DNA of 64,000 bases from positions 4,640,870 to 4,704,869 of the forward strand of contig NZ_CP132480.1 in assembly GCF_030770395.1 (NCBI RefSeq). Reading direction: 5' to 3'. Shown piece after piece: positions 38,890-43,581 of this stretch. Under the pieces are notes generated by a model. It worked only from the letters and a program-made list of their open reading frames with translations, was not told the origin of the DNA and did not search any database. How positions within the stretch are numbered: the stretch's first letter is position 1; each line of letters opens with the position of its first letter. Position numbers and translations under genes: made by a program. The DNA is from Telluria beijingensis (lineage in GTDB: Bacteria > Pseudomonadota > Gammaproteobacteria > Burkholderiales > Burkholderiaceae_D).

Positions 38890-38948
38890 CGGTTTCCCCA
38901 GGATTGTTTCTAATCAGAACAGCAGAAGCCAATCTTAGGAGTAATGTC

Positions 38949-39581
38949 GTGCGTCCATCAGACGAAAATCAAGACAACCGCATGCATGCCCATATGCGCC
39001 CCAACCTGATGTCGTCGCCACGCCGCGGCGGCCGTGAAGACAGCATTCTCGCCAGGCTCGAGCGCGAACCGGCCCGGCGTGCCGGCGCCAGCCAGGGTAT
39101 GCGCCTGGCCTGGTACGGGGCGGCGTCCGTGGTGGCGATGGGATTGACGGCAACCCTGGCCTGGCTGGCGGCCGGGACCGGGCCGGCGCCGCTCGAGATG
39201 GCCGTTCCTGACGCCCCGGCTCCGGTCGCGAGCGCACCGCCCGCGCCGGTCGAGACGGCCGTGATCGTCGACGCGGCGCCGGTTCCTCCGCTGCGCCTGC
39301 TGGAACCCGCCCCCGCCGCGCCCGCGCCAGTCCTGGCGGCGCCCCCGGTCGTGGCCAGAACCGCCTCGCCACGCATCGCGGCGCAGGCCCGGCCCCGTGC
39401 CCAGGCCACGCGACCGGCGCCGCGCCAGGCCGCGCGTCCGGCCCGGACGGTCAATCCGGCCCGCGCCGGCGAGGCCCAGGACGATAGCGACGTCGCCCTG
39501 ATCTCGGCCGTGATCTACCACGCGAACGGCCACGCCGCCCCTGCGGAAGACGAGGCGCCGGCGGTACCGCCAGCCCGCTAG
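38949..39581 (+). CDS. Single-pass membrane protein with Pro/Ala-rich tail, unknown
   Basis: About 210 residues from a GTG start at 38949, chosen for the AGGAG seven bases upstream; ATG codons at 38982 and later are alternatives. A charged N-terminus (about 55 residues) is followed by one helix (AWYGAASVVAMGLTATLAWLAAG) and a long Pro/Ala/Val-rich, basic extracytoplasmic region with no recognisable fold. The layout resembles membrane proteins that stretch across the periplasm (TonB-like in composition), but no TonB C-terminal domain is seen. Divergent from the M15 gene; next gene downstream has its own promoter. Confidence 0.6.
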   Translation: MRPSDENQDNRMHAHMRPNLMSSPRRGGREDSILARLEREPARRAGASQGMRLAWYGAASVVAMGLTATLAWLAAGTGPAPLEMAVPDAPAPVASAPPAPVETAVIVDAAPVPPLRLLEPAPAAPAPVLAAPPVVARTASPRIAAQARPRAQATRPAPRQAARPARTVNPARAGEAQDDSDVALISAVIYHANGHAAPAEDEAPAVPPAR

Positions 39582-39606
39582 CCCATCGTGGCCGGAACGC
39601 GCTATA

Positions 39607-39622
39607 CTGTATATAAGTACAG
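39607..39622 (+). promoter_or_regulatory. LexA (SOS) box before the FAN1-helicase operon
   Basis: CTGTATATAAGTACAG carries the full CTGT-N8-ACAG frame of the LexA operator with an alternating A/T core. It overlaps the downstream edge of a TATACT -10-like hexamer and lies 14 bases before the ATG of the FAN1-type nuclease gene, where LexA would block transcription. Confidence 0.85.
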
Positions 39623-39636
39623 GTGGGCGTTCGGTC

Positions 39637-41310
39637 ATGATCAGGGTGTTGGAAAACGAGTTTTATTATCTGGATAACTTCCAGCGTGTCCTCGACTGGA
39701 TCGGCGAACGCTATGGCGACCTGCTCGACGACGGCGAGCACGCCTTCCTGGCGGCCTTCCCCGCCCTGCCGCGCAATGCGCGCGCCCTGTTCGTGCGCAT
39801 GGTCATGCGCAAGGGGCAGCTGTTCCGCGCCAGCAAGCTGAACTATGCCGAGATCGGCTGCCCGGTCGACGCCGCGCGGCACCTGCTCGGCACCGGCTGG
39901 ATCGAAGCCGATCCCGAGATGTCGCTCGACGAATTGTTCGACCTGCTGTCCAAGCCCGAGCTGGCCGACGCCTTCGGCGCCCGCCTGCAGCGCAAGACCG
40001 CGCGCAAGGAAGAACAGCTCGAAGCGCTGCGCCCCGTGTGCCCCGACGCCCAACGCTTTTCAAGCTGGCATCCAGCCTGCCCCGACGTCGCCTGGCGCAT
40101 CCTGGTCAAGCCGCTGTGCGACCGCCTGCGCCTGGTCTTCTTCGGCAACCTGCACCAGGGCTGGACCGACTTCGTGCTGTCCGACCTCGGCCTGTTCCGC
40201 TACGAGACGGTGGACATCTCGTCCGCCTCGCGCGGTTTCCGCAAGCGGGCCGACGTCGACCACTACCTGCAGCTGTACGCCTGCCGCGAACGCTTCGCCG
40301 CCGGCGAGGATGTCGACGAGGTGGTGCGCGACCTGCCCCGGCACGCCTTCGACAACGACTGGCTCGAGAGCCGGCGCGAGAAGCTCACCTTCCAGATCGG
40401 CCAACACTACGAAAAGCTGAAAAACTGGGACGGCGCCTACGCCGCCTATGCAGCCTGCCGCTTCCCCGGCGCGCGCGGGCGCGCGATCCGCGTGCTCGAG
40501 AAGCACGAGCGCTTCGAGCAGGCCCATGCCCTATTGCTTGAAGCGCAATCTGCGCCCGAGAACGAGGCCGAGCGCCAGCACCTGGCCCGCATCGCGCCGC
40601 GCCTGGCGCGCCGCCTCGGCCACGCGCGCCTGCCCGCGCGCGGCAAGACCCCGGTCGAGCGCATCGAGCTGTGCCTGGCGCCGCCGAACGGCGAACGCTG
40701 GGTCGAAGGCGCCGTGCGCGGCCACCTGTCGACCGACGCGGCGCCCGTATTCTACGTCGAGAATGCGCTGGCCAATACCCTGTTCGGCCTGTTGTGCTGG
40801 CGCGCCGTGTTCGCCGCCATTCCGGGCGCCTTCTTCCACCCCTTCCACCGCGGACCGGCCGACCTGCACAGCGCCGACTTCCACACGCGCAGGCAGCACG
40901 AATTCGCCGCCTGCCTGGCGGAGCTGGACGACGGCAGCTACCGCGACTCGATCCGGCGCACGTACCACGAAAAAGCCGGCCTGCAGTCCCCGTTCGTGCA
41001 CTGGGACGGCATGCCGCTGGACGTCATCGAGCTGGCCCTTGCCTGCATCCCGCCCGCCCACCTGCGCAAGTGGTGCGAGCGCATCCTGGCCGACGTCAAG
41101 GAGAACCGCAACGGCTTCCCCGACCTGATCCAGTTCTGGCCGGGCGAAGGCCGCTACCTGATGATCGAGGTGAAGGGACCGGGCGACCGCCTGCAGGACA
41201 ACCAGCTGCGCTGGATCGACTACTGCGCCGCGCACGGCATGCCGGTCTCGGTGTGCTACCTGCAGTGGGCCGAAGTCTCACAGTTGGCGGCATCAGAGAT
41301 GGCGGCATAA
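39637..41310 (+). CDS. FAN1-type VRR-NUC nuclease
   Basis: Bacterial homologue of FAN1, a structure-specific nuclease that cuts near DNA interstrand crosslinks. The 557-residue protein has the FAN1 order: N-terminal region with ALFVRMVMRKGQLFRASKLNYAEIG (a SAP/winged-helix-like DNA-binding part), a helical TPR-like middle (HYEKLKNWDGAYAAYAACRFPGARGRAIRVLEKHERFEQA) and the C-terminal VRR-NUC domain with NRNGFPDLIQFWPGEGRYLMIEVKGPGDRLQDNQLRWIDYC. The catalytic PD...EVK residues are present. It is followed after six bases by a nuclease-helicase and preceded by a LexA box. Confidence 0.93.
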   Translation: MIRVLENEFYYLDNFQRVLDWIGERYGDLLDDGEHAFLAAFPALPRNARALFVRMVMRKGQLFRASKLNYAEIGCPVDAARHLLGTGWIEADPEMSLDELFDLLSKPELADAFGARLQRKTARKEEQLEALRPVCPDAQRFSSWHPACPDVAWRILVKPLCDRLRLVFFGNLHQGWTDFVLSDLGLFRYETVDISSASRGFRKRADVDHYLQLYACRERFAAGEDVDEVVRDLPRHAFDNDWLESRREKLTFQIGQHYEKLKNWDGAYAAYAACRFPGARGRAIRVLEKHERFEQAHALLLEAQSAPENEAERQHLARIAPRLARRLGHARLPARGKTPVERIELCLAPPNGERWVEGAVRGHLSTDAAPVFYVENALANTLFGLLCWRAVFAAIPGAFFHPFHRGPADLHSADFHTRRQHEFAACLAELDDGSYRDSIRRTYHEKAGLQSPFVHWDGMPLDVIELALACIPPAHLRKWCERILADVKENRNGFPDLIQFWPGEGRYLMIEVKGPGDRLQDNQLRWIDYCAAHGMPVSVCYLQWAEVSQLAASEMAA

Positions 41311-41316
41311 GCGTTC

Positions 41317-43581
41317 GTGACCTACACCATCGCCGTCCGCGCCCTGTGCGAGTTCACCGCCAAGCAGGGTGACCTCGACCTGCGCTTCACGCCCTCGCCC
41401 AGCGCCCAGGAAGGCATCCAGGGCCACGTCGTCGTCGCTGGCCGCCGCGGCGACGGCTACCGCTGCGAAGTATCGCTGTCCGGGCAGTGGAACGACCTGC
41501 ACGTGCGCGGCCGCGCCGATGGCTACGACGTCAACGAGAACCTGATCGAAGAGGTCAAGACCCACCGCGGCCGGGTCGACGCCATCCCCGACAACCACCG
41601 CCACCTGCACTGGGCCCAGTTGCGCGTGTACGGCCACCTGCTGTGCGAGGAGCAGGACATGGCGTCGGTCAACCTGGCCCTGGTCTACTACGACATCGGC
41701 AGCGGCGCCGAGACGGTGCTGCGCGAGACGCGCGAGCGCGCCTGGCTGCGCGAGCATTTCGAGGCACTGTGCGCGCGTTTCTCGGACTGGGCTGCCAGCG
41801 AAGCGGCGCACCGCGCGGCGCGCGACGCCGCCCTGGCTGAGTTGCGCTTCCCGCACGCCGACTTCCGGCCCGGCCAGCGCCAGCTCGCCGAGAACATCTA
41901 CCGCGCCAATGCCAGCGGCCGCTGCCTGCTGGCGCAAGCCCCGACCGGCATCGGCAAGACCGTGGGCAGCCTGTTCCCGGTGCTCAAGGCCATGCCACGG
42001 GAAAAACTCGACAAGGTGTTCTTCCTGGCCGCGAAGACGCCCGGCCGGCGCCTGGCGCTCGATGGCGCCGAGAAGCTGTGCGCCGATGGCCGGGCGCCGC
42101 TGCGGGTGCTGGAACTGACCGCGCGCGACAAGGCCTGCGAACATCCCGACAAGGAATGCCACGGCTTGTCCTGCCCGCTGGCCCGTGGATTCTACGACCG
42201 CCTGCCGGCGGCGCGCGCGGCGGCCGCGGCGACCGTGCAGGTGCTGGACCGCGACGCGCTGCGCGAAGTCGCGCTGGCGCACGAGGTCTGCCCCTACTAC
42301 CTGGGCAGCGAAATGGCGCGCTGGTCCGACCTGATCGTCGGCGACTACAATTATTATTTCGACGGCAGCGCCATGCTGTACGCGCTGGGGCTGGCCAATG
42401 GCTGGAAGACCAGCGTGCTGGTCGACGAGGCCCACAACCTGGTCGGCCGCGCGCGCTCGATGTACAGCACCGAACTCGATCGCGAACTGCTACGCCTGGC
42501 GCGCGCCGATGCGCCGCCAGCCGTCAGGAAGACGCTGGAGAAGGTCGGTCGCGCCTGGACCGCGGTCGACAAGACGGCGCCGGCGCCGTATCAACTACTT
42601 GAAAAAATCCCGTCGAAGCTGGTGGATGCACTGCAGGAAATGGGCAGCGCCATCAACGAACACCTGGCCGCCTTCCCCGGCCCGCTCGAGCGCGACCTGC
42701 AGCGCTTTTATTTCGATGCGATGCAGTTCGTGCGCCTGGCGGAATCGTTCGGACCGCACTCGCTGTGCGACCTGGGCCGGGACGCCGACCGCCCCACCCT
42801 GCGCGACTCGACCATCTGCATCCGCAACGTGGTGCCGGCGCCCTTCCTCGGCCCGCGCTTCGCGGCGACGCACTCGAGCACCCTGTTCTCGGCCACGCTC
42901 GGTCCCTGGCACTACTGCCTCGACACGCTCGGCCTGCCGGCCGATACCGCCTGGGTCGAGGTCGAGTCCCCGTTCAGGGCCAGCCAGCTCGACGTCCACG
43001 TGGCGCACGGCATCTCGACCCGCTACCAAAGGCGCGCCGCGTCGGTGCAGCCGATCGCCGAACTGATCGCGCGCCAATACGCCGAACGGCCGGGTAACTA
43101 CCTGGCCTTCTTCAGCAGCTTCGATTACCTGGACCAGGTGGCGCAGGCGCTGGCGCGCCTCGACCCCGGCGTGCCGACCTGGCGCCAGGAGCGCCGCATG
43201 AGCGAGCATGAACGGCAAGGCTTCATCGACCGTTTCGCCGTTGGTGGATCGGGCATCGGTTTCGCCGTGCTGGGCGGCGCCTTCGGCGAAGGCGTCGACC
43301 TGCCGGGCGAGCGCCTGATCGGCGCTTTCGTCGCCACCCTCGGCCTGCCGCAGGTGAACCCGGTCAACGAGCAGCTGCGCGAACGGATGCAGGCGCTGTT
43401 CGGCGCCGGCTACGACTACACCTACCTGTACCCCGGCATCCAGAAGGTGGTGCAGGCGGCCGGCCGGGTGATCCGCACCGAGCAGGATCGCGGCGTGGTG
43501 TGGCTGATCGACGACCGCTTCTCCCAGCCGGGCATCAGGTCATTGATGCCCACCTGGTGGGAGCTCGACTCACGCCAGTAG
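41317..43581 (+). CDS. DinG/XPD-class helicase with N-terminal PD-(D/E)XK domain
   Basis: A 754-residue superfamily 2 helicase with GTG start. Residues about 1-140 form a nuclease-like domain (VRGRADGYDVNENLIEEVKTHRGRVDAI, PD-(D/E)XK pattern). Helicase motifs: Walker A APTGIGKT with Lys214, DEAH at 370-373 (VLVDEAHNL), and motif VI VQAAGRVIRTEQDRG. Cys274, Cys281, Cys286 and Cys325 sit between motifs Ia and II, where XPD/DinG enzymes bind a 4Fe-4S cluster. It likely unwinds damaged or crosslinked DNA in concert with the FAN1-type nuclease encoded six bases upstream. Its end overlaps the convergent LytTR regulator gene by 12 bases. Confidence 0.9.
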   Translation: MTYTIAVRALCEFTAKQGDLDLRFTPSPSAQEGIQGHVVVAGRRGDGYRCEVSLSGQWNDLHVRGRADGYDVNENLIEEVKTHRGRVDAIPDNHRHLHWAQLRVYGHLLCEEQDMASVNLALVYYDIGSGAETVLRETRERAWLREHFEALCARFSDWAASEAAHRAARDAALAELRFPHADFRPGQRQLAENIYRANASGRCLLAQAPTGIGKTVGSLFPVLKAMPREKLDKVFFLAAKTPGRRLALDGAEKLCADGRAPLRVLELTARDKACEHPDKECHGLSCPLARGFYDRLPAARAAAAATVQVLDRDALREVALAHEVCPYYLGSEMARWSDLIVGDYNYYFDGSAMLYALGLANGWKTSVLVDEAHNLVGRARSMYSTELDRELLRLARADAPPAVRKTLEKVGRAWTAVDKTAPAPYQLLEKIPSKLVDALQEMGSAINEHLAAFPGPLERDLQRFYFDAMQFVRLAESFGPHSLCDLGRDADRPTLRDSTICIRNVVPAPFLGPRFAATHSSTLFSATLGPWHYCLDTLGLPADTAWVEVESPFRASQLDVHVAHGISTRYQRRAASVQPIAELIARQYAERPGNYLAFFSSFDYLDQVAQALARLDPGVPTWRQERRMSEHERQGFIDRFAVGGSGIGFAVLGGAFGEGVDLPGERLIGAFVATLGLPQVNPVNEQLRERMQALFGAGYDYTYLYPGIQKVVQAAGRVIRTEQDRGVVWLIDDRFSQPGIRSLMPTWWELDSRQ

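Follow-up and report, generated by a model that had tools for sequence, protein, structure and literature searches.

An apparent LexA operator ahead of a FAN1 and nuclease-helicase gene pair in Telluria beijingensis

Described relatives and the Telluria locus

The closest described relative of the nuclease considered here is PaFAN1 of Pseudomonas aeruginosa (PA1865; PDB 4r89 and 5y7g), which has served as a structural stand-in for human FAN1 and is presented, in the passages available to us, as a 5′-flap nuclease tied to crosslink repair (PMC9635880, PMC4348246). We saw little on the role or regulation of FAN1 in bacteria. According to excerpts of one study that links PA1865 to the PaFAN1 papers (PMC12796719, 2026), this gene is induced by UV-C and ciprofloxacin, and PA1866 is likewise induced by UV-C. 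The literature passages mention neither an operon partner nor a LexA box for PaFAN1; in contrast, both are conserved features of the locus that we describe here, in which a fan1 gene and an XPD/DinG-class nuclease-helicase gene follow a LexA-type box within a 64-kb window (the whole stretch analysed, 64,000 nucleotides (nt) of contig NZ_CP132480.1) of Telluria beijingensis. Judged from the sequence, LexA control of the two genes is highly probable, and a LexA-repressed two-gene repair operon is a likely explanation of the locus as a whole. The original prediction had placed the box 14 nt before a FAN1-type VRR-NUC gene and an XPD/DinG-class helicase 6 nt further on; coordinates and Pfam matches agree with this layout, the two distances being those from box end to the fan1 ATG (39637) and from the fan1 stop to the helicase GTG. 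The features of the locus are as follows.

39603..39608, + strand: −10-like hexamer TATACT, sharing its last two bases with the start of the box; putative promoter role
39607..39622, + strand: LexA-type operator CTGTATATAAGTACAG; rank 3–4 of 34 genome sites, arms invariant in 65 of 65 loci
39637..41310, + strand: fan1, bacterial FAN1 orthologue of 557 amino acids (Pfam; 654 bits to PaFAN1, PDB 4r89/5y7g; catalytic residues)
39661..39906, + strand: FAN1_HTH domain, residues 9–90 (Pfam)
39916..40068, + strand: FANC_SAP domain, residues 94–144 (Pfam)
40930..41262, + strand: VRR-NUC nuclease domain, residues 432–542 (Pfam)
41317..43581, + strand: nuclease-helicase gene of XPD/DinG class, 754 amino acids, GTG start (Pfam; full-length match to Finegoldia magna DinG, 9kqh)
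41317..41847, + strand: N-terminal PD-(D/E)XK domain, residues 1–177, with D68, E79-x-K81 and Q101-x3-Y105
42136..42291, + strand: iron-sulphur (Fe-S) type cysteines C274, C281, C286 and C325 (74-protein and 50-row alignments)

The first gene encodes a FAN1 protein in which FAN1_HTH (126 bits), FANC_SAP (57 bits) and VRR_NUC (120 bits) all exceed their Pfam cut-offs within one polypeptide. It resembles PaFAN1 in full-length orthology, the match to 4r89 running across residues 5–544, and in all four catalytic residues: E386, D507, E522 and K524 of PaFAN1, taken as the reference set from passages of PMC4348246, correspond to the metal-binding residues E375, D496, E511 and K513. Three of these (E375, D496 and K513) were kept in 74 of 74 aligned FAN1 proteins and E511 in 73; in the remaining protein (genome G582, L166:5403-7097) a lysine replaces the E511 equivalent, and box and helicase are still there. 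No other VRR-NUC match was found among the proteins of the genome, and the closest proteins from named genomes were those of Massilia. By analogy with PaFAN1, the protein may act as a 5′-flap nuclease that unhooks crosslinks.

The second gene encodes a protein with Helicase_C_2 and DEAD_2 matches above the Pfam cut-offs. Walker A, the DEAH box and motif VI are intact (G211, K214, D370, E371, H373, Q713, R717 and R720 in 74/74 aligned proteins), and the four cysteines are invariant in the 50-row alignment, C274, C286 and C325 being also present in 74/74 and C281 in 69/74 of the larger set, which together identify an XPD/DinG-class Fe-S helicase. Its N-terminal domain has the D...E-x-K and Q-x3-Y motifs and the matching fold of Cas4/EXO5/RecB-like nucleases, the fold being that of the end-processing exonucleases EXO5, MGME1, lambda exonuclease and AddAB. 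The likeness to DinG put forward in the original prediction stood at the level of class and fell at that of the E. coli type: the helicase core is common to E. coli DinG and YoaA, but the window protein differs from these in its extra nuclease domain and in scores far under the NCBIfam cut-offs (79.5 vs 598 bits for DinG, 81.6 vs 680 bits for YoaA), and identity with either was rejected. The alignment with F. magna DinG shows an alanine at the position of D68. Judging from these motifs, the protein is probably a 5′–3′ Fe-S XPD-class motor joined to a Cas4/EXO5-type exonuclease. The end of the gene (43581) slightly overlaps a convergent frame ending at 43570, which by eye resembles a LytTR-type response regulator; this makes a two-gene unit on this strand probable.

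More distant likenesses extend to eukaryotic crosslink repair. Human FAN1 matched the window FAN1 with ~104 bits, FANCJ (9ej9) matched the helicase with 36 bits and XPD-type entries with 28–70 bits, and the fold matches of the helicase include 8rev, titled XPD stalled at a crosslink. Human FAN1 and the FANCJ/XPD-class helicases are separate genes, and we know of no ubiquitin pathway here, unlike the setting of human FAN1; the parallel is offered as a functional analogy only.

A phage or mobile origin of the pair was also considered and rejected. A search of 50,697 phage records for FAN1 gave nothing at E 1e-5, and for the helicase there were 21 phage matches, all below 60% identity, the ten listed (including Listeria and Enterococcus records) lying at 33–36%.

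The box and the region upstream of fan1

The sequence CTGTN8ACAG occurs once in the window, as CTGTATATAAGTACAG at 39607–39622, and at 34 sites in the single-contig 6.02-Mb genome; at the genome's own box density, ~0.00025 boxes would be expected by chance over 45 start positions. Inspection of neighbourhoods in the same genome found such sites before lexA, dinB, ruvC and an NAD kinase gene, and also before imuA (twice), an error-prone DNA polymerase gene, a PA0069-type radical SAM gene and a UDG-linked radical SAM gene; a ParE-like gene stands behind another, its score of 679 bits being just under the cut-off of 723. The quality of the proposed box was borne out by LexA matrices from the genome's own sites. 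Scored with a symmetric matrix made from ten SOS-type sites, the FAN1 box itself excluded, it reached 25.7 bits, ranking fourth of 34 and higher than eight of the ten SOS sites in leave-one-out scoring, and it ranked third with the matrix of the initial seven Pfam-identified sites. For comparison, the P. aeruginosa LexA consensus is given as CTG-TATAA-ATATA-CAG in the part of PMC7427096 available to us.

When 65 loci obtained from one scan of named genomes were aligned on the box, the eight arm columns averaged 2.0 bits and the core 1.2 bits, with flanks at 0.32–0.38 bits. The 15 columns directly 5′ of the box stood at 0.85 bits, and the TATA preceding CTGT was kept at 88–100% per column. TATACT may accordingly be read as a −10 hexamer that the operator overlaps. 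A Pro/Ala-rich frame of 225 amino acids (38904–39581) lies on the same strand as the box and stops 25 nt before it; it has a relative in 42 of the 65 related loci, so read-through from that frame is possible.

Conservation of the box and of the gene pair

An exact CTGTN8ACAG lay 11–39 nt before the FAN1 start in all 65 named loci, and outside the 60 nt before FAN1 only three more were found in the 734 kb of these loci. The helicase followed 3′ of FAN1 in 64 of 64 testable loci (L098 ends inside FAN1; in L095 the helicase is in pieces). Gaps between the two genes were determined in 63 loci with starts chosen by similarity, leaving out L098, which ends early, and L100: 42 were 4-nt start/stop overlaps and 61 fell between −13 and 23 nt; outside this range were L047 (121 nt) and L095, where the helicase is split. 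FAN1 and helicase distances were correlated at 0.98 over 73 shared loci, which is consistent with long co-inheritance of the two proteins.

Within the family, FAN1 was present in 247 of 392 genomes and 18 of 44 genera, while 24 single genomes from outside the family but within the order gave none. In 30 of the 247 matches, hand-chosen to span 17 genera other than that of the window, the helicase adjoined FAN1 at 29 of 29 testable loci, the 30th lying at a contig edge. Of the 30, 22 had a site of at least 13 bits in the 300 nt before FAN1, and 13 of the 17 genera had at least one locus with a site. Among matches on plasmids, of which 7 of 14 were examined (Burkholderia 3/4, Vibrio 3/5, Bradyrhizobium 1/2 and Pseudoalteromonas 0/3), the three from Burkholderia stagnalis, B. 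arboris and B. multivorans all had a box 18 nt upstream (21–22.6 bits) followed by FAN1 and helicase.

A search of 244 Pseudomonadales genomes gave 92 matches, and in the best 30 of these, a set leaning to close relatives, the helicase adjoined FAN1 at 29 loci and a site of at least 12.9 bits was present at all nine loci of family f185. FAN1 is common in one genus of that family (g388, 144 of 149 genomes). Scoring of 37 f185 loci (33 from the 144 matches of g388, three from g405 and one from g231) gave a site of at least 10 bits, often CTGTATGCATAACCAG, in 36, and not one of 148 control stretches inside the same FAN1 genes reached 10 bits (maximum 9.9); the helicase adjoined FAN1 in 29 of the 37, with L299 at a contig end. 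All 25 genomes of g405 had FAN1, a site of at least 16 bits and an adjacent helicase, with FAN1 split in G1187. One g405 locus (L302), whose FAN1 shares 96% identity with PaFAN1 across 103 residues and which carries CTGTATGCATGAACAG 21 nt 5′ of the nominal start, was taken for P. aeruginosa or a near relative; because of this match we took f185 for Pseudomonadaceae and g405 for Pseudomonas, and because the helicase adjoins FAN1 throughout g405, PA1866 would be the helicase. Halomonas-like loci such as L255, L262 and L264 carry a conserved, half-site-like ATGGATNNATGAACAG upstream of FAN1, which was not counted as a box and looks like a one-sided remnant of one.

Among 369 genomes sampled evenly across the class, FAN1 (FAN1_HTH, over cut-off in 19) was found in 20, the helicase in 14 and both in 13 (hypergeometric P ~3e-18, uncorrected for relatedness); G480, which is counted with the 13, has a weak helicase match that lies on a different contig. 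Eighteen of the 20 FAN1 loci were examined, leaving out the window genome (G000) and the sub-cut-off G630, and five had a site of at least 17 bits. Three of these five belong to one genus in which FAN1 is fused C-terminally to a DnaQ-type exonuclease (RNase_T; L178:4475-6613, L179:4424-6673 and L180:999-3155), with a LexA-like site 28–40 nt upstream and no helicase alongside. LexA may thus have recruited FAN1 repeatedly, with different partner nucleases.

Across the named relatives, the family sample, Burkholderia and g405, the box was conserved at orthologous pairs, and the two genes were usually adjacent in relatives. Neither of the refuting conditions named in the original prediction, a box not conserved at such pairs or genes usually apart in relatives, was therefore borne out, and both observations support one apparent LexA operator over the FAN1-helicase pair.

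Proposed mechanism, alternatives and other LexA-type sites

We propose that in the undamaged cell LexA would sit on the box overlapping the −10 hexamer and keep the promoter shut, and that RecA on single-stranded DNA would lead to LexA self-cleavage and free the promoter, so that a single transcript with coupled translation would yield both FAN1 and the nuclease-helicase. For induction, the evidence is that published for the P. aeruginosa orthologue, which responds to UV-C and ciprofloxacin. The helicase would open and trim DNA near a blocked fork or adduct and expose a flap; FAN1 would cut this 5′-flap and continue beyond the lesion, unhooking an interstrand crosslink or another block of that kind. 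That the two enzymes act jointly is a reasonable expectation, and interstrand crosslinks are, by a narrower judgement, the favoured main substrate, a dedicated crosslink role being suggested by what is reported of PaFAN1.

Several results weigh against a LexA-controlled pair of this kind. A consensus scan of this strand found no canonical sigma-70 −35/−10 pair at the box, so the promoter role of TATACT stays putative. No good site lay within 300 nt in eight of the 30 family loci or in 13 of the 18 class loci (L168 and L181 hardly judgeable), sites fell below 12.9 bits in 20 of the 21 Pseudomonadales loci outside f185, and box and adjacent helicase were both absent at the three Vibrio and one Bradyrhizobium loci (L239, L240, L243 and L241). 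The helicase adjoined FAN1 in only 11 of the 18 class loci, the other seven including L169, which is too short to tell, and one of the 14 class genomes with the helicase, G527, lacks FAN1. In f185, seven of the 36 testable loci combine a site (10.3–20.9 bits) with the lack of any helicase match in the next 1.5 kb (L292 in detail), so the pair is not obligatory. Excerpts of the UV-C study also report repression of PA1865 by hydrogen peroxide, an effect that LexA control alone would not predict, and state that no LexA-like repressor is known to govern the gene (PMC12796719).

In the same excerpts PA1865 and PA1866 are said to lie outside the LexA-like regulons that are known, and this, with the several genera that keep the pair without the box, speaks for a box that serves a different SOS-like repressor or arises as a side effect of an AT-rich promoter, the operon lying outside the LexA regulon. 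Such a reading is improbable given arms that are invariant in 65 of 65 loci between flanks near background, a motif equal to that before lexA, imuA and dinB in the same genome, and the recurrence of the box in Burkholderia and f185. Still less probable is an anti-phage defence role for the pairing, with the helicase as a type IV CRISPR-type DinG or other defence protein. The PADLOC model PDLC01439 (typeIV_DinG) does match with 378 bits, but only over the shared helicase part, residues 174–747; the other two typeIV_DinG models are weak (38 and 16 bits), NCBIfam csf4 stays at 17 bits (cut-off 400), PADLOC has no model that FAN1 matches, and the closely correlated distances of the two proteins also argue against it. 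On these protein comparisons, identity with type IV CRISPR DinG was set aside.

The alternative that deserves most attention accepts LexA control and makes the pair a general flap-trimming and end-processing kit for forks stalled by UV or quinolone damage, with crosslinks a minor substrate. UV-C and ciprofloxacin, the reported inducers of the P. aeruginosa orthologue, are neither of them mainly crosslinkers, and the N-terminal fold of the helicase is shared with end-processing exonucleases. However, the SOS response is set off by single-stranded DNA of whatever origin, and the inducer therefore leaves the substrate unrevealed; in addition, citing papers state that PaFAN1 acts in crosslink unhooking (Gwon 2014, Jin 2018). 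We regard the general kit as possible, with the chances against it.

If LexA control and crosslink repair are both accepted, the pair might be a dedicated beta- and gammaproteobacterial SOS-inducible crosslink-unhooking machine, in which the FAN1 flap nuclease cooperates with a FANCJ/XPD-class helicase equipped with a Cas4/EXO5-type exonuclease of its own, a compact bacterial counterpart of the Fanconi FAN1 arm, and LexA would explain the UV induction of PA1865–PA1866; we put this forward tentatively, as a proposal that could well fail. LexA is a candidate regulator for the orphan DNA-damage response of PA1865 and PA1866, and major environmental genera would gain a crosslink-type repair module in their SOS regulon. 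The survey suggests that many soil and water bacteria hold the pair behind an apparent LexA switch as an inducible kit for crosslinked or blocked DNA. The enzymes belong to known families; what is new is the SOS-controlled pairing of FAN1 with a nuclease-helicase, together with how widely it occurs and the way it fits an induction published without explanation, and a conserved SOS-controlled partner helicase offers a concrete testable pathway. Among the full-text matches listed, no paper gave a LexA-controlled FAN1-helicase pair in its title or opening lines, subscription papers and preprints being outside the scope. Part of the finding may nonetheless have been foreseen by a 2012 prediction of LexA sites at betaproteobacterial 'Helicase c2' genes, left unnamed in the passages available (PMC3323433). 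Those genes share domain class, bacterial group and predicted LexA sites with the window helicase, whereas the passages mention neither FAN1 nor an operon; one of those genes may be this helicase.

Other LexA-type sites of the T. beijingensis genome were also noted. The second imuA gene has its own box at G000:C1:5233051 (L210, G000:C1:5230500-5235500), the first imuA lying at L188. Two CTGTN8ACAG boxes 3 bases apart (G000:C1:5216705-5216739, L209; 19.7 and 21.3 bits) lie near a PAP2-family gene and frames without an assignment. A 25.1-bit box at G000:C1:2556076-2556091 (L196) stands 14 nt before a phage-integrase family gene, which suggests an SOS-controlled recombinase.

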